The notes below the pieces were generated by a model, which had not been told where the DNA came from, did not search any database, and saw only the letters and a program-made list of their open reading frames with translations. DNA of 64,000 nucleotides from Magnetococcales bacterium. Its GTDB lineage: Bacteria > Pseudomonadota > Magnetococcia > Magnetococcales > JADFWU01. Positions within the stretch are counted from its first letter, which is position 1; every line of letters begins with the position of its first letter. The translations under genes were made by a program, and so were the position numbers. Where the stretch lies: the NCBI GenBank assembly GCA_015234045.1, contig JADFWU010000008.1:1-64000 (forward strand), read 5' to 3'. Positions 20,784 to 32,509 of the stretch are shown here, piece by piece.

Positions 20784-23700
20784 CTACTGAACTTCATTCC
20801 CATCAACATCCCAACTGGTGGTTGTGCCTTCAGGGTCTGTAAAGGAACTGGAACCATCAGCGTTCCAACGCCAGGTACCGGTATCATCGGTCCATGAGCT
20901 GGAACCATCAGCATTCCAGGTTGAAGTGCCGTATGAATCAGACATGCTGCCTGAACCATCGACATTTGATGTGTAGGTGTAATCACCATCCGCACTGGTA
21001 TAGACATAGTTACCGTCAGCATCCCAGGATTCGGTGGTGCCATCCGTATAGGTAACGCTATCGGAACCATCAGAACCGTAGGTGTGAACCGTTCCATCAG
21101 CATCGGTATGAACCACAGTTCCATCGTCAAGATAGGCATCCGTAGAACCATCAGGATTGGTCACTTCACCCGCTGTGTCATCCATAACCACTTCGTTGCC
21201 ATCGGCATCGAAGTAAGTCCGGTTGCCTTCACTATCCCATACTTCAGAGGAACCATCGGCATAGTTGATTGCACCGGAGCCATCCATGTTGCTGTATCCG
21301 CTGCTACCATCGGCATTCATCCAGTTGGCTGAACCGTCAGCGTACCAGGAACCAGAGGAACCATCCTCAGAGTACCAGCTACCGGAACCATCAGCGTTCC
21401 AGTATTCACTGTTACCCATGCCATCAGACCAACCACCAGAGCCATCAGCATTTTCATACTGATAGGAACCATCGGCGTTCCATTCACCATAGGAACCATC
21501 GGAACCGCTCCAGCTTCCGTTGCCTTCAGCATCCCAGGAGCTGGTGTTACCCATGTCATCGGAATACCAGCCGGAACCATCCGGGCTATCACCATATGAG
21601 TAACCATCACTCTCATAGGTGTGATTGCCTTCAGCGTCCCAGGACTCGGTAGAGCCATCAGGATAAGTTACCTCACTTGATCCATCAGGATGCCAGGTAT
21701 TGGTTGTTCCATCCACATCCACATGTGCGGAGGAACCGTCTGCATACCAGATATCTTGAGAACCATCCTCATTGACATACTCACCGGTCTCGAACTCCGA
21801 GGGCGGAATCTCGTTACCAGCCGCGTCGGTATAGCTCATATTGCCATCAGCATCCCAATTCATGGAACTACCGTCAGCATAGGAATGGCTTCCACTGCCA
21901 TCCATGTTCCAAGTGCCTGATGAACCATCGGCATCGGTCCAGGAACCGTTACCTTCCGCATCCCAGGTAGAGCTTGCACCGTCAGCATTGGCCCAAGAGC
22001 CGGAGCCGTCAGCATTCCAGGTTTCGCTGGAACCATCAGCGTATTGAATGGAACCGTTGCCTTCAGCGTCCCAGGTTTCGGTGGTGCCATCCGCTGAGTT
22101 ATAGGTTCCGCCACCATCTGAATCCCAGGAACCGGAATTCCCTTCAGCATCCGACCAGTTACCAGAGCCATCGGCATTCCAATATTCACTGGAGCCATCG
22201 GCCATGTACGACCCGCCAGAACCATCAGCACTCCACCAGGAGCTGTTGCCCTCGGCATCACTCCAACCGCCAGAGCCGTCAGCACCGCCGTAGGAGTACG
22301 AACCGTCATCGCTCCACATGCTGTATGAGCCATCCGTTCCGTGCCAGGAACCGTTGCCTTGGGCATCCCATTCTGATGTGCCATAGTCATCGACATAGCT
22401 GCCGGAACCATCCACATTTTCAGTATAGGAGTAGTTATCACCATTGTAGGTATGGTTGCCTTCAGCGTCCCAAACTTCCGAAGTACCGTCTGTGTACTCA
22501 ACGACAGACGATCCATCAGCATGCCAGGTGTGCGCCGTGCCATCCGCGTCAACATGAGCGGAAGAGCCATCGGCAAACCAGATATCCTTGGAACCATCCT
22601 CGTTTACATACTCACCGGTTTCAAATTCCGAAGGCGGAATGTCATTGCCGGCCGCATCGGTATAGGTGGTATTGCCTTCAGCATCCCAGTTCATGGATTC
22701 GCCATCGGGGTAGGTATAGCTGCCGCTACCATCGATATTGTACGAACCTGAAGAACCATCGGAACCGGTCCAAGTACCGTTTCCTTCGCTATCCCAAGAA
22801 CTGGAAGAGCCGTCTGGACTGTTCCAGGAACCCGAACCATCCGCATTCCACGTTTGGCTGGAACCATCAGCGTAGTCGATTGAACCGTTGCCTTCACCAT
22901 CCCATGTTTCCATGGTGCCATCGGCTGAATTGAAGGTGCCGCCACCATCAGTGTCATAGCTGCCGGAGTTTCCGTAGGGATCACTCCAATCACCGGACCC
23001 ATCAGCGTTCCAGTTCTCAGAGTAGCCGTCAGAACCGTAGAATCCACCGGAACCATCGGCATTGGTCCAACTGCTGTTGCCATCGGCATCATACCAACCA
23101 CCAGAGCCATCAGCATTCAACCAACTACCGGAACCATCGGCATTCCATTCGCCGTAGGAACCGTCTGAACCACTCCAGGAGCCGTTACCTTGTCCATCCC
23201 AGTCAGACGAACCGTAGGAATCAGAGTAACTACCAGAACCATCGACATTTTCAGTATAGGAGTAGCCGTCACCGTTATAGGTGTGATTGCCGTCCGCATC
23301 CCATGTCTCAGAAGAGCCATCAGGATAGGTAACATCACTTGATCCATCAGGATGCCAGCTATGTGTGGTGCCATCGGGATCTACATGAGCGGATGAGCCA
23401 TCAGCAAACCAGATATCCTTGGAACCATCTTCGTTGACAAACTCACCGGTTTCGAACTCCGAAGGCGGAATATCATTACCCGCTGCATCGGTGTAGCTCA
23501 TATTGCCTTCTGAATCCCAGCTCATGGTCTCGCCATTCGGGAAAGACTCACTGCCGGAACCATCGGCATTCCATGTTCCGCTGGAACCATCGGCATGGTT
23601 CCAGGAACCATTACCATCCGCATCCCATTGGGCACTTGAGCCGTCACCGCTATCCCAGGAACCGGAACCATCGGCATTCCAGGTCTCAGAAGAACCATCA

Positions 23701-26700
23701 GCCCAGGTTATTGAACCGTTGCCCTCACCATCCCAGGATTCTGAACTTCCGTCTGCATTATTGAAGGTGCCACCACCATCAGCGTCATAGCTGCCGGAGT
23801 TTCCATTGCTGTCACTCCAATCACCTGAGCCATCGGCGTTCCAGTTTTCATAGTAGCCATCAGCGCCATAGAAACCACCGGAACCATCGGCATTCCAGTA
23901 GCTGCTATTGCCTTCAGCGTCATACCAACCGCCTGATCCATCAGGATTGGCCCAGTTGCCGGAACCGTCCGCATGCCAGTCAGAATGAGAACCATCGGCA
24001 CCATTCCAACTACCATTACCCTGACCATCCCATTCGGAAGAGCCGTATGAATCGGAGTAACTGCCAGAACCGTCTACATTCTCGGTATAGGCGTAGCCGT
24101 CACCGTTGTACGTATGGTTACCATCGGCATCCCAGGTTTCGCTGGTGCCATCTGGATATTCAACTGCGCTTGATCCATCAGGATGCCAGCTATGAGACGT
24201 TCCATCCGGGTCAACATGAGCGGATGAGCCATCAGCAAACCAGATATCCTTGGAGCCATCTTCGTTAACAAACTCACCGACTTCGAAATCTGAGGGCGGA
24301 ATATCGTTACCCGCCGCATCGGTGTAGGTCATAGTGCCTTCGGCATCCCAGTTCATGGTCTCACCGCCAGGGAAAGACTCACTACCGGACCCATCGGCAT
24401 TCCATGTACCACTGGACCCATCAGGATTGGTCCAAGAACCGTTGCCCTGACCATCCCAATCAGCACTGGCACCATCAGGAGCGGTCCAGGAACCAGAACC
24501 ATCGGCGTTCCATGTCTCGGATGAGCCGTCAGCCCAGCTTATTGAACCATTGCCCTCACCATCCCATGCTTCAGAAGTACCATCCGCATGGTTGATGGTT
24601 CCACCACCATCGGTATCATAGCTACCGTAGCTGCCGTCAGAGTCGTACCACTCACCGGAACCATCGGCGTTCCAGTACTCGCTGGAACCATCCGAGTTAT
24701 ACATACCGCCGGAACCATCGGACATCCACCAGCTACTGTTACCATCCGCGTCATACCAACCGCCGGAGCCATCCGCATTTTGATAGTTACCGGAGCCGTC
24801 CGCATTCCATTCACCGTAGGAACCATCCTCACCATACCAGGCACCATTGCCTTGACCATCCCATTCGGAAGAACCATAGGCATCGGAGTAACTGCCTGAG
24901 CCGTCTACATTCTCAGTATAGGCGTAGCCGTCACCGTTATAGGTATGGTTGCCATCGGCATCCCATGTTTCGCTGGTGCCATCGGTGTATTCAACTTCTG
25001 ATGATCCATCAGGATGCCAGCTGTGAGTGGTTCCATCCGGGTCCACATGAGCGGAAGAGCCGTCAGCAAACCAGATATCCTTGGAACCATCTTCATTGAT
25101 GAACTCACCGGTCTCAAACTCCGAAGGCGGAATTTCATTACCAGCGGCATCGGTGTAAGAGCTGTTGCCTTCGGCATCCCAATTCATGGATGTGCCATCA
25201 GGAAAATGCTCACTGCCGGAACCATCGGCATTCCATGTACCACTGGAACCATCAGGATTGGTCCAAGAGCCGTTGCCCTGACCATCCCAATCAGCGTGTT
25301 CACCACCAGCACCTGTCCAGGAACCCGAGCCATCAACATTCCAGGTCTCGGAAGCACCATCCGGCCATGTTATTGAACCGTTTCCTTCAACATCCCAAGT
25401 TTCGGTCGTACCATCAGCATGGGTTATTGAACCGCTGCCATCCGCTTCATAGTTGCCGAAGCTACCATCAGAACTGTACCAGGAACCGGAACCATCGGCG
25501 TTCCAGTATTCACTGGAACCATCTGCGCTGTACATGCCGCCGGAACCATCCGCCTGCCACCAGCTGCTGTTGCCTTCAGGGTCATACCAACCGCCGGAAC
25601 CATCGGAGTATTGATAGCTGCCGGAACCGTCAGCATTCCATTCGGAATAGGAACCATCGGCACCGGTCCAGGAACCGTTGCCTTGAGAATCCCATTCGGA
25701 ACTGCCGTAGGTGTCAGAATAGCTACCTGAGCCATCAACATTATCCGTGTAGGAGTAGCCATCACCGTTATAGGTGTGATTGCCTTCTGCATCCCAGGTT
25801 TCACCGGTTCCATCTGGATTGACCACTTCTGTCGATCCATCAGGATGCCAGCTATGGGTTGTGCCATCAGGGTCTACATGAGCGGAAGAGCCATCAGCAA
25901 ACCAAATATCCGTGCTGCCATCCTCATTGGTGAATTCACCAACGCTAAATTCTGAGGACGGAATCTCATTTCCGGCCGCATCGGTATAGGTCACGTCACC
26001 TTGGGCATTCCAGCTTTCCGTAGAACCATCAGCGTGGTTATAACTACCACTACCATCGGCATTGTAGGTGCCTGATGTACCATCGGAGCCTGTCCAGGTA
26101 CCGTTACCCTCAGCATCCCAGGTAGAACTGTTACCATCCGCATCAGCCCAGGAACCGGAACCATCGACATTCCACGTCTCTGTGGAACCGTCAGACCAGG
26201 TTATTGAACCATTTCCTTCAGCGTCCCAATTCTCGGTGGTGCCGTCAGCATGAGTTATCGCGCCACTGCCATCGGCTTCATAGTTGCCGTATGAGCCATC
26301 AGGATCACTCCAGGAACCGGAACCATCACTGTTCCATGATTCATAGTGTCCATCAGAACTATAGAAACCACCGGAACCATCAGAGTTCCAGTATTCACCG
26401 TTGCCTGCGCCATCGTACCAACCACCGGAGCCATCGGAATTGGCCCAGTTACCGGAACCATCGTTGTTCCATTCACCATACGACCCATCAGAGCCGAACC
26501 AAGCACCATTGCCCTGCCCGTCCCACTCAGAGGTACCATAATCATCGGACCAGCTGCCGGAACCATCGACATTTTCGGTATAGACGTAGTTGTCACCATT
26601 ATAGGTGTGATTGCCTTCTGCATCCCAGCTCTCGCTGGTGCCATCGGAATACTCAACTTCGCTTGATCCATCGGGATGCCAGCTGTGGGTTGTGCCATCG

Positions 26701-29414
26701 GTATCTACATGCGCGGATGAACCATCGGCGTACCAGATATCCTTGGAACCATCTTCGTTGATATACTCACCGGTCTCAAACTCAGAGGGCGGAATTTCAT
26801 TACCAGCGGCATCGGTGTAGGAGACGTTTCCTTCTGCATCCCAATTCATGGATGTGCCGTCAGGAAACCGCTCACCGCCGGAACCGTCAGCATTCCATGT
26901 ACCGGTTGATCCATCGGGATGACTCCAGGAACCATTGCCCTGGCCGTCCCATTCAGCATGTTCGCCATCAGCACCGGTCCAGGATCCTGAACCGTCCATA
27001 TTCCATGTCTCAGTGGAACCGTCAGACCATGTGATGGAACCGTTGCCTTCAGCGTCCCAGGTTTCACTGCTACCATCAGCATTTGTTATGGAACCACTGC
27101 CGTCAGCCTCGTAAGAGCCGTAGCTACCATCTGAGCCATACCACTGACCAGAGCCATCGGAATTCCAATATTCACTGGAACCATCCGCATTGTACTGACC
27201 GCCGGAACCATCGGCATTCCACCAACTGCTGTTGCCATCAGCATCCGACCATCCGCCAGAGCCATCCGCACTGGTCCAGGAGCCGGAACCATCGGCATTC
27301 CACTCTCCATAGGAGCCATCTGAACCACTCCAGGAACCGTTACCTTGGCTGTCCCATTCAGAGGTGCCGTAATCATCACTCCAACTACCGGAACCGTCTA
27401 CATTTTCGGTGTAGCTGTAACCATTGCCGTTGTAGGTATGATTGCCTTCAGCATCCCAAGTTTCACTGCTGCCATCAGTGTATTCAACTTCACTGGAACC
27501 ATCGACATGCCATGTATGTGTTGTGCCATCTGCATCAACATGGGCGGATGAGCCATCAGCAAACCAGATATCCTTGGAACCATCTTCATTAATGAACTCA
27601 CCGGTCTCAAATTCTGAGGGCGGAATTTCGTTACCCGCAGCATCAGTATAGGCTGTATTGCCTTCGGCATCCCAATTCATGGATGTACCGTCAGGAAAGC
27701 TCTCTGAACCGGAACCATCAGCATTCCAAGTACCGGTTGATCCATCGGGATTGCTCCAGGAGCCGTTTCCCTGCCCATCCCAGCTCGCAGAAGAACCATC
27801 GGAACCGGTCCAACTACCAGAACCGTCCACATTCCATGTTTCACTGGAACCATCGGCCCAGGTTATGGACCCATTGCCTTCAGCGTCCCAGGATTCGGTC
27901 ATACCATCCGAACTGGTGAAGGAACCACTGCCATCACTGTTCCAGGTTCCGCTGTTGCCTTGCCCATCATCGTAGGAGCCTGAACCGTCCGCACTCCAGC
28001 TCTCGGTATACCCATCAGAGCCGTAATACTGTCCGTTGCCTTCCGCATCCCACCAGCTGGAACTTCCGTCCGATGAGGTCCAGTTGCCAGAACCGTCAGA
28101 GTTGTTCCAAGAGCTGTTACCATCTGAATCCCATGTACCATAGGAACCATCGGTTCCCGCCCAGGTTCCACCGCCCTGACTATCCCAAGTGCTCGTGCCG
28201 TAGTCATCGGAAAAGGTGCCAGATCCATCCAGGTTTTCGGTATAGGAGTAGTCTTGACCTTCGTATGAATAGTTACCCTCAGAATCCCAGTTTTCGGACG
28301 TTCCATCCGGATAATCAACGCTGCTTGAACCATCGGGATTATAGGTGTGGGTTGTGCCGTCTGCATCGGTATGTGTGCTGGTGCCGTCTTCTGAATAGGT
28401 ATCAACAGAGCCATCATCATTGGTTACTTCGTAGGCTTCTGGATTGTCTGCAACAGTGCCATCAGGATCAGTGACAGTCATGTTGCCGTCAGAATCGTAG
28501 CTCTCTACTGTGCCATCGGGATATGTCGTGGCGCTGGAACCATCTGCGTTAATTTCAGAAGTGGTGCCATCAGTGGCTGTCCAAGTACCGGAGCCATCGG
28601 CATTAAAGGTACCGGATGAACCGTCAGCATTGGAGACTGTTCCGGAACCATCTTCGTTGTATGTTCCGCTGGAACCATCCGCTTCAGTCCAAGTGCCTGA
28701 ACCATCTGCATTGAATGTACCGGAAGAACCATCCGCATTGGTGTAGGAACCGTTTCCTTCTCCATCCCAAGTGGATGTTGAACCGTCCGTACCGTTGAAG
28801 TTACCGGAACCATCTTCGTTCCAGGTCTCGGTGGACCCATCTTCATAGGTGATATTGGTAGACCCATCTTCACCTGTTTCCATGGTCATACCAGTATCAT
28901 CGGCACCGGTATCATCACCCTCAGTGGTGGTCGTATCTGTAGTATCCGTGCCGGTAGTATCCGTGCCGGTAGTATCCGTGCCGGTAGTATCCGTGCCGGT
29001 AGTGTCCGTGCCGGTAGTGTCCGTGCCGGTAGTATCCGTGCCGGTAGTGTCCGTGCCGGTGGTATCCGTGCCGGTGGTATCCGTGCCGGTGGTATCCGTG
29101 CCGGTGGTATCCGTGCCGGTGGTATCCGTGCCGGTGGATGTATCATCCATATCTTCAGGAGGCGGAGGCGCATCAGAACCGGAATCATCCGGCGGTGGTG
29201 GTGCATCACTACCGGTATCACCGCTTGATGAAGGCGTATCCGTAGAAGCATCACCAGTCACATCGGAAGTCCCAACTTGAGAAGCGGCATCAGCCGCCGC
29301 ATCAGCTGCTTCAGCGGCGGCGGCTAATTCACTGCCACCGATCATCGCTGGCGCGATACGATCTTCAAGTTGCTCAACTTTTTTAGAAACGACTTTTTTC
29401 TTTTCCTTGGCCAT
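20784..29414 (-). CDS. Giant acidic DG/Trp-repeat protein, probable exported surface protein
   Basis: The protein has 2876 residues from the ATG at 29414, which has GGAGG five nt upstream; an earlier ATG at 29426 would overlap that site. The N-terminus is Lys-rich and carries QLEDRIAPAM, similar to the LEPR-type motif seen at the start of many very large bacterial surface proteins. Next come an Ala-rich segment, a Pro/Asp/Gly-rich segment and 13 tandem five-residue Thr/Gly/Asp units. From about residue 190 to the end the protein is made of short units such as NADGSGSWTGSDGSS, organised in 277-residue super-repeats. It is very acidic, rich in Gly, Ser, Asp and Trp/Tyr, and I see no cysteine. 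DxDGxG strings could bind calcium. It has no classical signal peptide. The adjacent TolC/HlyD/M50 genes are its likely export route. Confidence 0.88.
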   Translation of the reverse strand: MAKEKKKVVSKKVEQLEDRIAPAMIGGSELAAAAEAADAAADAASQVGTSDVTGDASTDTPSSSGDTGSDAPPPPDDSGSDAPPPPEDMDDTSTGTDTTGTDTTGTDTTGTDTTGTDTTGTDTTGTDTTGTDTTGTDTTGTDTTGTDTTGTDTTGTDTTDTTTTEGDDTGADDTGMTMETGEDGSTNITYEDGSTETWNEDGSGNFNGTDGSTSTWDGEGNGSYTNADGSSGTFNADGSGTWTEADGSSGTYNEDGSGTVSNADGSSGTFNADGSGTWTATDGTTSEINADGSSATTYPDGTVESYDSDGNMTVTDPDGTVADNPEAYEVTNDDGSVDTYSEDGTSTHTDADGTTHTYNPDGSSSVDYPDGTSENWDSEGNYSYEGQDYSYTENLDGSGTFSDDYGTSTWDSQGGGTWAGTDGSYGTWDSDGNSSWNNSDGSGNWTSSDGSSSWWDAEGNGQYYGSDGYTESWSADGSGSYDDGQGNSGTWNSDGSGSFTSSDGMTESWDAEGNGSITWADGSSETWNVDGSGSWTGSDGSSASWDGQGNGSWSNPDGSTGTWNADGSGSESFPDGTSMNWDAEGNTAYTDAAGNEIPPSEFETGEFINEDGSKDIWFADGSSAHVDADGTTHTWHVDGSSEVEYTDGSSETWDAEGNHTYNGNGYSYTENVDGSGSWSDDYGTSEWDSQGNGSWSGSDGSYGEWNADGSGSWTSADGSGGWSDADGNSSWWNADGSGGQYNADGSSEYWNSDGSGQWYGSDGSYGSYEADGSGSITNADGSSETWDAEGNGSITWSDGSTETWNMDGSGSWTGADGEHAEWDGQGNGSWSHPDGSTGTWNADGSGGERFPDGTSMNWDAEGNVSYTDAAGNEIPPSEFETGEYINEDGSKDIWYADGSSAHVDTDGTTHSWHPDGSSEVEYSDGTSESWDAEGNHTYNGDNYVYTENVDGSGSWSDDYGTSEWDGQGNGAWFGSDGSYGEWNNDGSGNWANSDGSGGWYDGAGNGEYWNSDGSGGFYSSDGHYESWNSDGSGSWSDPDGSYGNYEADGSGAITHADGTTENWDAEGNGSITWSDGSTETWNVDGSGSWADADGNSSTWDAEGNGTWTGSDGTSGTYNADGSGSYNHADGSTESWNAQGDVTYTDAAGNEIPSSEFSVGEFTNEDGSTDIWFADGSSAHVDPDGTTHSWHPDGSTEVVNPDGTGETWDAEGNHTYNGDGYSYTDNVDGSGSYSDTYGSSEWDSQGNGSWTGADGSYSEWNADGSGSYQYSDGSGGWYDPEGNSSWWQADGSGGMYSADGSSEYWNADGSGSWYSSDGSFGNYEADGSGSITHADGTTETWDVEGNGSITWPDGASETWNVDGSGSWTGAGGEHADWDGQGNGSWTNPDGSSGTWNADGSGSEHFPDGTSMNWDAEGNSSYTDAAGNEIPPSEFETGEFINEDGSKDIWFADGSSAHVDPDGTTHSWHPDGSSEVEYTDGTSETWDADGNHTYNGDGYAYTENVDGSGSYSDAYGSSEWDGQGNGAWYGEDGSYGEWNADGSGNYQNADGSGGWYDADGNSSWWMSDGSGGMYNSDGSSEYWNADGSGEWYDSDGSYGSYDTDGGGTINHADGTSEAWDGEGNGSISWADGSSETWNADGSGSWTAPDGASADWDGQGNGSWTNPDGSSGTWNADGSGSESFPGGETMNWDAEGTMTYTDAAGNDIPPSDFEVGEFVNEDGSKDIWFADGSSAHVDPDGTSHSWHPDGSSAVEYPDGTSETWDADGNHTYNGDGYAYTENVDGSGSYSDSYGSSEWDGQGNGSWNGADGSHSDWHADGSGNWANPDGSGGWYDAEGNSSYWNADGSGGFYGADGYYENWNADGSGDWSDSNGNSGSYDADGGGTFNNADGSSESWDGEGNGSITWADGSSETWNADGSGSWDSGDGSSAQWDADGNGSWNHADGSSGTWNADGSGSESFPNGETMSWDSEGNMSYTDAAGNDIPPSEFETGEFVNEDGSKDIWFADGSSAHVDPDGTTHSWHPDGSSDVTYPDGSSETWDADGNHTYNGDGYSYTENVDGSGSYSDSYGSSDWDGQGNGSWSGSDGSYGEWNADGSGSWLNADGSGGWYDADGNSSWTNADGSGGFYGSDGYSENWNADGSGDWSDPYGNSGSYDTDGGGTFNSADGTMETWDGEGNGSIDYADGSSQTWNADGSGSWNSPDGSSSSWDSEGNGTWTGSDGSSGSYNIDGSGSYTYPDGESMNWDAEGNTTYTDAAGNDIPPSEFETGEYVNEDGSKDIWFADGSSAHVDADGTAHTWHADGSSVVEYTDGTSEVWDAEGNHTYNGDNYSYTENVDGSGSYVDDYGTSEWDAQGNGSWHGTDGSYSMWSDDGSYSYGGADGSGGWSDAEGNSSWWSADGSGGSYMADGSSEYWNADGSGNWSDAEGNSGSWDSDGGGTYNSADGTTETWDAEGNGSIQYADGSSETWNADGSGSWANADGASSTWDAEGNGSWTDADGSSGTWNMDGSGSHSYADGSSMNWDADGNMSYTDAAGNEIPPSEFETGEYVNEDGSQDIWYADGSSAHVDVDGTTNTWHPDGSSEVTYPDGSTESWDAEGNHTYESDGYSYGDSPDGSGWYSDDMGNTSSWDAEGNGSWSGSDGSYGEWNADGSYQYENADGSGGWSDGMGNSEYWNADGSGSWYSEDGSSGSWYADGSANWMNADGSSGYSNMDGSGAINYADGSSEVWDSEGNRTYFDADGNEVVMDDTAGEVTNPDGSTDAYLDDGTVVHTDADGTVHTYGSDGSDSVTYTDGTTESWDADGNYVYTSADGDYTYTSNVDGSGSMSDSYGTSTWNADGSSSWTDDTGTWRWNADGSSSFTDPEGTTTSWDVDGNEVQ
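21089..28430 (-). repeat. 831-bp (277-residue) higher-order coding repeat
   Basis: One anchor string in each unit (TTGTGCCATC or a close variant, read on the plus strand) recurs at 28352, 27521, 26690, 25859, 25028, 24197, 23366, 22535 and 21704. A second anchor (GGCGGA or a one-base variant) recurs at 27619, 26788, 25957, 25126, 24295, 23464, 22633 and 21802. Every step I checked is 831 bp, so units have diverged by substitution without net indels. A truncated, divergent last unit follows towards 20784, with its anchor at about 21089 (615 bp on). Confidence 0.9.
28941..29136 (-). repeat. 15-bp tandem repeat (Thr/Gly/Asp linker)
   Basis: Thirteen head-to-tail copies of a 15-bp unit (AGTATCCGTGCCGGT with A/G and G/A variants, read on the plus strand) encode TGTDT-type pentapeptides in the giant protein. 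It is probably a flexible linker between the N-terminal motif and the repeat body. Copy number is likely to vary between strains. Confidence 0.9.
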
Positions 29415-29426
29415 CGTAGCCTCCAT

Positions 29427-29938: not shown

Positions 29939-31087
29939 TCAGGCTAAGATTGTTTCCACCAACTCAATCCAATACTGACTGCCAATCGGCAGAAGTGCAT
30001 CATTGAAATCAAAGTGAGGATTATGCAGCGGCGCATGCGCTTCACCACTACCAAGAAACATATAATTACCGGGTACTTGCTGCAACATGAATGAAAAATC
30101 CTCAGACGCGATTCCTGGTCGAACCTGCCCATCAACCTTCTGTACTCCAACCACATTAATTGCAGCAGACATGGCCAATTCAGAGGCCTTTTCATCATTA
30201 ATCGTAGCGGGATAGCGCGGCTGATAATTCCATTGAAATGTGCCGCCATGTGCTTGGCAAATGCCCTGAAGGATCTTTGCCATTGCAGAACGAATTTCAC
30301 CACCCACTTCAGGGTTGAAATGACGGGTACAGCCAGCCATTTTCACCATCTCGGGAATCACATTCCACGTGTCACCACCATTGATCTGAGTCACTGAAAC
30401 CACACCAGGATCTGTGGGATTGATACGCCGAGATATGACAGTTTGAAATGCGTTCACCACCTCAGCCGCCATCACCACGGTATCCACACCATTTTGCGGC
30501 ATGGCTGCATGGGTGCCTTTGCCCTGTAGCGTGATATCAAACGTATCAAACGCGGCCATCATCGCCCCTGTGCGTGTGGCAAAGTGACCTTCTTTAATGC
30601 CCGGCTTATTGTGCAAACCAAACACCCTGTCCATGGGAAAGCGCTTGAACAACCCCTCTTCCACCATCACCTTAGCACCGCCGAGATTCTCTTCTGCGGG
30701 TTGGAAAATAAAATAAACCGTACCGTTAAATGTATCCCGTTCAGCCAGTATCCGCGCGGCACCCAACAGCATGGCCATATGTCCATCATGACCACAAGCA
30801 TGCATAAATCCTGTTTTTTCCGAACGATATCCTAGACCAGTCTCTTCACGGATGGGCAATCCGTCCATATCCGCCCTCAAGCCGATAGTACGGCCACTAT
30901 CTCCGCGTTTAAGCACCCCAACTACGCCAGTTGTTGCCAATCCTTGGTGTACCGTCAAACCAAACCCAGACAATAGGTCAGCAACGATCTTTGCGGTCTT
31001 CAACTCTTTGAAACCAGGCTCTGGGCATCGGTGAAATGCGTGCCGCCATGTAACCATCTGCTGATTGACCAGTTCCTGCACTGACAT
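29939..31087 (-). CDS. M20-family amidohydrolase (hippurate hydrolase/IAA-amino acid hydrolase type)
   Basis: This 382-residue metallopeptidase-fold enzyme of the M20D group has metal-binding blocks ADMDGLPI, HACGHDGHMAMLLGAA and PAEENLGGAKVMVEEG, and a C-terminal SEDFSFM block. The dimerisation-domain His is in GKGTHAAMPQNGVD. Members cleave N-acylated amino acids such as hippurate; the exact substrate cannot be told from sequence. It is a cytoplasmic, single gene read away from the H-NOX-PilZ gene. Confidence 0.9.
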   Translation of the reverse strand: MSVQELVNQQMVTWRHAFHRCPEPGFKELKTAKIVADLLSGFGLTVHQGLATTGVVGVLKRGDSGRTIGLRADMDGLPIREETGLGYRSEKTGFMHACGHDGHMAMLLGAARILAERDTFNGTVYFIFQPAEENLGGAKVMVEEGLFKRFPMDRVFGLHNKPGIKEGHFATRTGAMMAAFDTFDITLQGKGTHAAMPQNGVDTVVMAAEVVNAFQTVISRRINPTDPGVVSVTQINGGDTWNVIPEMVKMAGCTRHFNPEVGGEIRSAMAKILQGICQAHGGTFQWNYQPRYPATINDEKASELAMSAAINVVGVQKVDGQVRPGIASEDFSFMLQQVPGNYMFLGSGEAHAPLHNPHFDFNDALLPIGSQYWIELVETILA

Positions 31088-31264: not shown

Positions 31265-32509
31265 ATGGAATCAGATCACATGCACGGCATCATTTTGTCA
31301 AAACTGGCCAACTTCGTTCAAACCGAGTTTCCTGAAAGTTATTTCAGCGCACTCTGTGACGAAACCACACTCAGTCGTTATTTAAAACCACTCAACAGGC
31401 AGGTGCCAGAGAAAGAAGTTCAAACAATTTTGTCAACTCTTTCTTATCAAACCGGCCAACCTATTCGTCAAATTCTGGAACATTTTGGCCGCCATATTGC
31501 GCCAGATTTGATTGAAACAAGCATGTATTTTTCACCCATGGAGCACGATTGGCAATTGGGTGATCTGCTCAACCATGCCATTCGAACCATTCATGAACAG
31601 CTAAAAAAACATAATCCAACACTGGCACCACCTGATCTCTCAATTGACATATTGGATGACAGTGATATACGCATTATTTATAAATCAAACAAAAGATTAT
31701 GTGCATTTCTAATAGGCATTGTCAAAGGGACAGCCGCCTATCTGGATACCCGTATTTCCATTATTGAAGATGTCTGCATGCATCGTGGTGATAATCAGTG
31801 CGTCATTGAAGTACGGGTAATCAATCGTCACGATCACCTGGATGAATCATCACGCTGGATGAATCTGATCAGCGATAAAAGTGAAGATCGCAAAACCATC
31901 CGGCTGGTCAATGAGTTTCAAGGTGTGCCCATCAGCTCGGTCAGTCAGGTTATTACTGACCAACAAGAGAGCCTGACGCTGACAGTCACCAAACCACATG
32001 CCGCTTTACTGAAAGAGACCAGCCAGACTTTTATTTCAGTTGAAGGACTGCCTAAAGCTCTTTGCGCCCGCATCAGTCAAGTCAGGGCTGAAGGCAAAGT
32101 CACCCTTCACGATCTATGCGAGTGTGAATATTCGCTCACCAAACGCAATGCGGTACGGATTATTCCACCCAACATGGTCACTGTTGAACTGGATGGCGAA
32201 GGCACCGCTGTTGGCGAATTAACCAATGTTTCAAAAACCGGTCTTGCCGCGCTTTTTAGAGAAAACATCGGTTTTGATCAAGGATTTTCACCACGGCTTA
32301 ATCTGACCTTTGGTCTGACACTGCAACATGGCGCACCACCGGTGAATGTCACAACTGAAGGCCAAGTCATCCATATTCACCAGGACGATCCACAGTTTTT
32401 AGTCAGAATTCAATTTCTGAATATGGAATCAAAAAATCGACAGATAGTGGAGCGCTTTATCCTGCGGCGGCAGCTTGAAGTGATGAATGAACTTAAGAAA
32501 AAGATGTAG
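31265..32509 (+). CDS. H-NOX (haem NO/O2-binding)-PilZ fusion protein
   Basis: The protein has 414 residues from the ATG at 31265; a start at 31280 giving MHGIILSKLANF is also possible. The first 180 residues match the H-NOX fold. A histidine in RTIHEQLKKHNP falls at position 105 counted from MHGII, the usual place of the haem-ligating His. YKSNK replaces the canonical YxSxR haem-propionate motif with a conservative Lys. A linker follows, then a C-terminal PilZ-type region with RNAVR (RxxxR) and NVSKTG ([D/N]xSxxG), the c-di-GMP-binding signatures. It could couple NO or O2 sensing to c-di-GMP. An in-frame upstream extension to 31139 has no N-terminal homology and is left out. Confidence 0.78.
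   Translation: MESDHMHGIILSKLANFVQTEFPESYFSALCDETTLSRYLKPLNRQVPEKEVQTILSTLSYQTGQPIRQILEHFGRHIAPDLIETSMYFSPMEHDWQLGDLLNHAIRTIHEQLKKHNPTLAPPDLSIDILDDSDIRIIYKSNKRLCAFLIGIVKGTAAYLDTRISIIEDVCMHRGDNQCVIEVRVINRHDHLDESSRWMNLISDKSEDRKTIRLVNEFQGVPISSVSQVITDQQESLTLTVTKPHAALLKETSQTFISVEGLPKALCARISQVRAEGKVTLHDLCECEYSLTKRNAVRIIPPNMVTVELDGEGTAVGELTNVSKTGLAALFRENIGFDQGFSPRLNLTFGLTLQHGAPPVNVTTEGQVIHIHQDDPQFLVRIQFLNMESKNRQIVERFILRRQLEVMNELKKKM

Follow-up and report, generated by a model that had tools for sequence, protein, structure and literature searches.

H-NOX fused to a predicted YcgR-type c-di-GMP receptor: a core gene of Magnetococcales that has mostly lost the haem histidine and keeps a putative zinc-cysteine site

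Known H-NOX domains are separate proteins that act on a kinase, DGC or PDE. An open frame of 414 codons (31265-32506 plus stop) in the window, i.e., the whole 64,000-nucleotide stretch of DNA analysed here, raises the question of whether one chain can hold both an H-NOX sensor and a c-di-GMP receptor and, if so, which signal such a protein would read. The original prediction that the frame encodes H-NOX and PilZ in one protein was borne out by the domain search, in which both domains exceeded their Pfam cut-offs. HNOB matched residues 7-166 (78.3 bits against a cut-off of 25.5, E=8e-22, profile positions 1-161 of 163), and PilZ matched residues 293-400 (31.3 bits against 22.5, E 2.8e-7). The family profile match begins at 31280, which is M6 of the frame, and M6 is the MHG start common to relatives; therefore, ATG 31280 is the likelier start. 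A role in an operon within the window was rejected, as the gene stands alone between a divergent M20-family amidohydrolase gene (29939-31087) upstream and the convergent epmA and efp genes on its 3' side. Promoter and terminator scans gave no signal above chance. Beside it, on the minus strand (20784-29426), lies a 2880-aa frame with the N-terminal sequence KKVEQLEDRIAPA, after which DGSGxW / ADGSSxxW-like motifs recur a great many times; its product would be a giant, repeat-rich protein that is probably exported.

The fold of the window protein was predicted with AlphaFold2 using 23 relatives (mean pLDDT 83.7, pTM 0.52). Residues 6-192 of the model matched Shewanella oneidensis H-NOX (4u99) with Z 19.0 over 183 aligned residues (rmsd 2.9 Å). 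A V4R-like fold, named beforehand as the refutation of H-NOX, was not found: the model matches a solved H-NOX, and V4R scored 22.2 bits against a cut-off of 31. The remainder of the model (residues about 190-413) matched MotI/DgrA (5vx6; Z 15.2 over residues 201-408), YcgR with c-di-GMP (5y6f; Z 14.0 over residues 190-413) and PP4397 (3kyf; Z 13.4); Foldseek agreed with the two-domain YcgR/MotI-type match (E about 1e-8). The two-domain superpositions gave rmsd values of 11-14 Å, which probably reflect a different hinge angle between the two domains, since PilZ alone fits 4xrn at 2.2 Å (Z 13.4 over residues 291-405). Pfam PilZNR (PF12945) had no match in any of the 48 Magnetococcales genomes, and the YcgR-N assignment of residues 190-290 is drawn from the predicted structure alone. 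Because of these fold matches, we describe the protein as an H-NOX, a PilZN-like barrel and a PilZ domain; that is, everything after the H-NOX is predicted to fold as a complete YcgR/MotI-type two-domain c-di-GMP receptor, beyond PilZ alone (Table 1). HNOB was matched in all 24 sampled family members and PilZ in 23 of them, and the model of a relative without the haem histidine (L101) showed the same fold (pLDDT 88.3, H-NOX Z 21.1).

The claim that RxxxR and NxSxxG point to c-di-GMP binding is well supported as a prediction, as both motifs are present in the window protein. They are complete in 40 of the 42 fusion members compared. The window genome contains 38 GGDEF and 17 PilZ matches and is therefore rich in c-di-GMP signalling.

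Table 1. Positions of the fusion gene and of its domains, motifs and putative ligand residues in the window.
Feature	Positions	Strand	Basis or remark
H-NOX-YcgR/PilZ fusion gene	31265..32509	+	414 aa from ATG 31265; ATG 31280 likelier
H-NOX domain, residues 6-187	31280..31825	+	Pfam HNOB E=8e-22; 4u99 Z 19.0
His110 = His103 of S. oneidensis H-NOX (haem proximal ligand)	31592..31594	+	alignment
YxSxR-type haem-propionate motif, Y139-K-S141-N-K143	31679..31693	+	Lys for usual Arg
Cys146 = So Cys139, putative zinc ligand	31700..31702	+	alignment
Glu168 = So His161 / Vc Gln171, fourth zinc ligand position (putative)	31766..31768	+	alignment
Cys171 = So Cys164, putative zinc ligand	31775..31777	+	alignment
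Cys179 = So Cys172, putative zinc ligand	31799..31801	+	alignment
YcgR-N-like (PilZN-type) beta domain, residues 190-290 (predicted)	31832..32134	+	structure match to YcgR/MotI; Pfam silent
PilZ domain, residues 291-400	32135..32464	+	Pfam; 4xrn Z 13.4
c-di-GMP motif RxxxR (R294-R298)	32144..32158	+	invariant in family
c-di-GMP motif NxSxxG (N321xS323xxG326)	32225..32242	+	sequence
C-terminal helix, residues 389-413 (predicted)	32429..32503	+	AF2 secondary structure

We looked for similar fusions elsewhere and found the same architecture at more than 40 loci of other genomes, so the fusion is not a chance product. The window genome belongs to the same order as genomes G001-G047. HNOB was found in 44 of 48 Magnetococcales genomes and in all 17 genera, and the fusion was found in each of the 27 near-complete genomes (at least 90% complete, at most 5% contamination). 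Nearly all Magnetococcales HNOB frames are 400-570 aa long, which the full-length family profile confirms. The fusion is thus a core gene of Magnetococcales and no one-off. The phylum sample comprised 299 genomes, 269 of them outside the order; among the 53 of these that carry H-NOX, none has a true fusion-length frame, and their H-NOX frames measure 100-330 aa, except one of 430 aa. That frame (in G302) belongs to a standalone H-NOX, next to a GGDEF gene, and owes its length to an extension upstream, with no PilZ; a candidate in G199 has an N-terminal extension only. Both were rejected. A scan of genome contigs, covering fusions with one N-terminal motif, returned 23 loci, all from Magnetococcales; no pattern usable in collection scans came out of a divergent alignment of 19 sequences. 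We infer that the fusion arose once, long ago, at the base of the order. The family profile also found Magnetococcales YcgR-type proteins at L183:3624-4940, L184:3738-4886, L185:3301-4578 and L186:4051-5196. Their N-terminal region of about 150-200 aa is different and not H-NOX; they were excluded from the family and are possibly another sensor-YcgR fusion.

Which signal would the H-NOX part read? The haem-ligand histidine was expected at the position where His110 indeed aligns with S. oneidensis His103, and the YxSxK motif was likewise found (Table 1), its Lys143 being a conservative replacement of the usual Arg; P123 is present as well. Because His110 is kept, haem binding by the window copy is probable, and NO could serve as its second signal. 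Phe148 stands at +5 after the R/K of YxSxR, which we take to be the distal-Tyr position of the O2-binding Tt H-NOX (Tt Tyr140), and the position is L, M, F, V or I in all 42 members. With Phe148 in place of a distal Tyr, O2 is an unlikely ligand for the window copy, and O2 sensing by it was rejected. That is, of the NO or O2 binding first suggested, NO is retained as a possibility for this copy with its His110, O2 is not, and neither appears to hold as a family-wide function.

His110 is kept in only 11 of 42 full-length members (12 of 42 when the H-NOX part is aligned alone), position 110 being L, F, Q, V, P or W elsewhere, and its column ranks 114th in conservation among the 184 H-NOX columns of the 42 members. 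On the family tree, the His110 label changes seven times, at least six of the changes being forced by supported branches and some falling between close sisters; the cysteine trio changes three times. In S. oneidensis H-NOX, the zinc ligands are Cys139, Cys164 and Cys172 together with His161 (PMC7108781). They align with C146, C171 and C179 and with E168 of the window protein at a constant offset of 7. All three cysteines are present in 37 of the 42 members, and the fourth position, which is His or Gln in Shewanella and Vibrio H-NOX, is Glu in 39 of the 42. Glu residues can bind zinc, and we regard zinc binding by the site as putative. As about three quarters of the members lack the proximal histidine yet carry the zinc-cysteine site, haem-based sensing of NO or O2 is not the general function of the family.

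A control set of 40 standalone H-NOX proteins from the rest of the phylum showed the reverse pattern, with the histidine in 29 of 40 and each cysteine in 10 of 40. In addition, the proximal histidine is absolutely conserved in 598 relatives of Vibrio cholerae (Vc) H-NOX (PMC7108781), whereas most fusions lack it; its repeated loss in the fusion family is therefore unusual. It is not unique to fusions, since about ten of the standalone controls outside the order (L171-L181, LDDLPDRARLAV type) also lack the histidine at the aligned column, together with YxSxR, and are possibly another haem-less H-NOX group. Because the haem histidine is mostly lost while the zinc-cysteine site is kept, the pattern suggests a protein that responds to oxidation more than to gas. 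In Vc H-NOX, oxidising the zinc cysteines to disulfides has been modelled to alter the fold much as NO does, and Vc H-NOX with oxidised zinc cysteines inhibits HnoK (PMC7108781). Caulobacter H-NOX is activated by cysteine oxidation and not by NO (PMC12329717). One feature is not fully explained: YxSx[RK] is retained in 27 of the 31 members without the histidine, which would not be expected if haem had simply been abandoned, unless the motif is also structural.

Our best explanation, which we hold tentatively and at a little under even, is a single-chain c-di-GMP effector gated by the redox state of its cysteine-zinc site, with NO-haem sensing retained in some copies, including that of the window. 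The N-terminal H-NOX would gate the YcgR/MotI-type two-domain receptor in the same chain, and the family-wide input would most likely be the redox state of the Cys3-Glu zinc site. Oxidation of C146, C171 and C179 would move the H-NOX subdomains about a glycine hinge, and NO on haem could cause the same movement where His110 is kept, as in the window copy. The hinge movement would alter the interface with the adjoining YcgR barrel and PilZ, and the altered interface would modify binding of c-di-GMP, or of the target, by the YcgR part. The flagellar motor is what YcgR and MotI act on, and a change in motor behaviour would most likely be the output here as well, by which a Magnetococcales cell would adjust how it swims or attaches where oxic and anoxic zones meet. 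A bolder form appears possible but more doubtful to us: across the order, the H-NOX, once a gas sensor working through haem, would have become a zinc-thiol redox sensor that needs no haem and directly gates a YcgR-type flagellar brake. If this form were true, cytoplasmic redox state would be coupled to motility in one polypeptide.

We considered NO as the leading input, which we judge unlikely. Ferrous haem would sit on His110, NO would break the Fe-His bond and thereby switch the YcgR part, and members without the histidine would be constitutively "NO-activated" or specialised derivatives. The window protein has His110, Y139xS141xK143 and P123, the histidine is kept in several other lineages, and a solved structure of the S. 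oneidensis H-NOX H103G mutant (2kil) mimics the broken Fe-His bond. Phe at the distal-Tyr position is, moreover, as in NO rather than O2 sensors (PMC12329717). However, His110 is far rarer among the members than the cysteine trio, and the Arg of YxSxR is replaced by Lys in the window copy.

The neighbourhoods of the fusion genes fall into different arrangements. Thioredoxin reductase (trxB; TIGR01292 E=8e-124) is the divergent neighbour of the fusion in 16 of 36 displayed loci, where the fusion is often convergent with a panE-like gene (named by eye). His110 is absent in 15 of these 16 members. The adjacency speaks for the redox reading, but it may simply reflect a single arrangement that was inherited, with no functional link behind it, and the window copy is not adjacent to trxB. 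A second group (L039 and L048 and, by their neighbours, L033 and L037) lies near hemerythrin- or PAS-containing histidine kinases and also response regulator-cyclases and response regulator-PAS proteins. At L048:3274-9225 and L033:10990-19823, hemerythrin, histidine kinase, response regulator-class III cyclase, response regulator-PAS and fusion genes form a cluster, which also holds a conserved protein of about 211 aa with no Pfam match (cluster c18). The second H-NOX-PilZ copy of the window genome (L033:9703-10956; G000:C95) lies between an MtxA-like gene, which immediately precedes it, and a response regulator-cyclase-hemerythrin gene. The window genome has three MtxA-like genes (G000:C44, C69 and C95); most relatives have one.

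This second copy, in which the histidine, the cysteines and YxSxR are lost and the PilZ motifs are kept, fits a further explanation, in which the H-NOX is a relic or a dimerisation or docking module that senses no ligand and the protein is an ordinary c-di-GMP effector. The repeated histidine loss on the tree and the related members L068 and L069, which lack the cysteine trio, are also in its favour, and the alpha subunits of soluble guanylate cyclase, whose H-NOX is haem-free, provide a precedent. Retention of a metal site, however, is not what one expects of a relic, and conservation at Cys146, Cys171, Cys179 and Glu168 is high for the H-NOX part (within the top 24 of 184 columns), even though family members share only 18-27% identity with the window protein, which is the second most divergent member of the tree (end branch 2.7). 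We consider this explanation somewhat less probable still than one led by NO. An output other than the motor (exopolysaccharide synthesis, type IV pili, a histidine kinase, or transcription as in MrkH) seems improbable: the structure matches include MrkH (5kec Z 13.6, 5kgo Z 13.3) and Alg44, some loci lie beside a cluster-8/cluster-12 gene pair judged by eye to be putative secretion genes, and the genes of subfamily II have histidine kinases and response regulators as neighbours, but MotI and YcgR rank slightly higher, a weak point given the small differences in Z.

The preferred reading, a redox-gated c-di-GMP effector, has partial counterparts in known systems. The H-NOX (HnoX) proteins of S. 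oneidensis, V. cholerae and Caulobacter, which work with HnoK, resemble the fusion in the H-NOX fold, in the positions of the zinc cysteine trio, in their link to c-di-GMP signalling and, for the window copy, in the haem histidine; the fusion differs in joining sensor and c-di-GMP receptor in one chain. Soluble guanylate cyclase (alpha/beta) also has H-NOX in one chain with a cyclic-nucleotide output, as well as haem-less H-NOX paralogues (alpha), but its output is an enzyme, the cyclase, and that of the fusion is a receptor. The flagellar brakes YcgR of E. coli (for which PMC8961574 cites a reference) and MotI-DgrA of B. subtilis, as well as PP4397 and MrkH, have RxxxR and [DN]xSxxG in common with the fusion and also the two-domain PilZN-PilZ fold predicted for it, whereas the fusion adds an N-terminal sensor domain and has an N-terminal barrel that Pfam does not recognise. 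Leptospirales homologues of YcgR (PMC11800159) similarly combine a YcgR-type receptor with an extra domain of a sensory family; unlike the fusion, they belong to another phylum and carry an inserted GAF-like domain, with no haem or zinc H-NOX.

No paper on an H-NOX-PilZ fusion was found in the literature searched, outside which most subscription papers lie. Both halves belong to known families, and the architecture may be catalogued in domain databases without study; what is new relative to that literature is that the two are combined, that the order carries the fusion as a core gene, and that the histidine is lost while the cysteines are retained. The known route from H-NOX to c-di-GMP runs through partner enzymes. 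In the fusion, sensor and receptor are one molecule, so a single protein could balance a gas or redox signal against the amount of c-di-GMP. It is debated whether the zinc-cysteine site lets H-NOX function in the absence of haem, which to date has been observed in vitro for Vibrio and Caulobacter, and the family offers a natural experiment on this question. Haem-free function is directly testable, because the family includes close relatives of which some have the haem histidine and others lack it (L064 versus L067/L079, L068 versus L069, and L080 versus L061/L063). Magnetococcales are known for magneto-aerotaxis, and in these bacteria the fusion may be what couples swimming to redox state.
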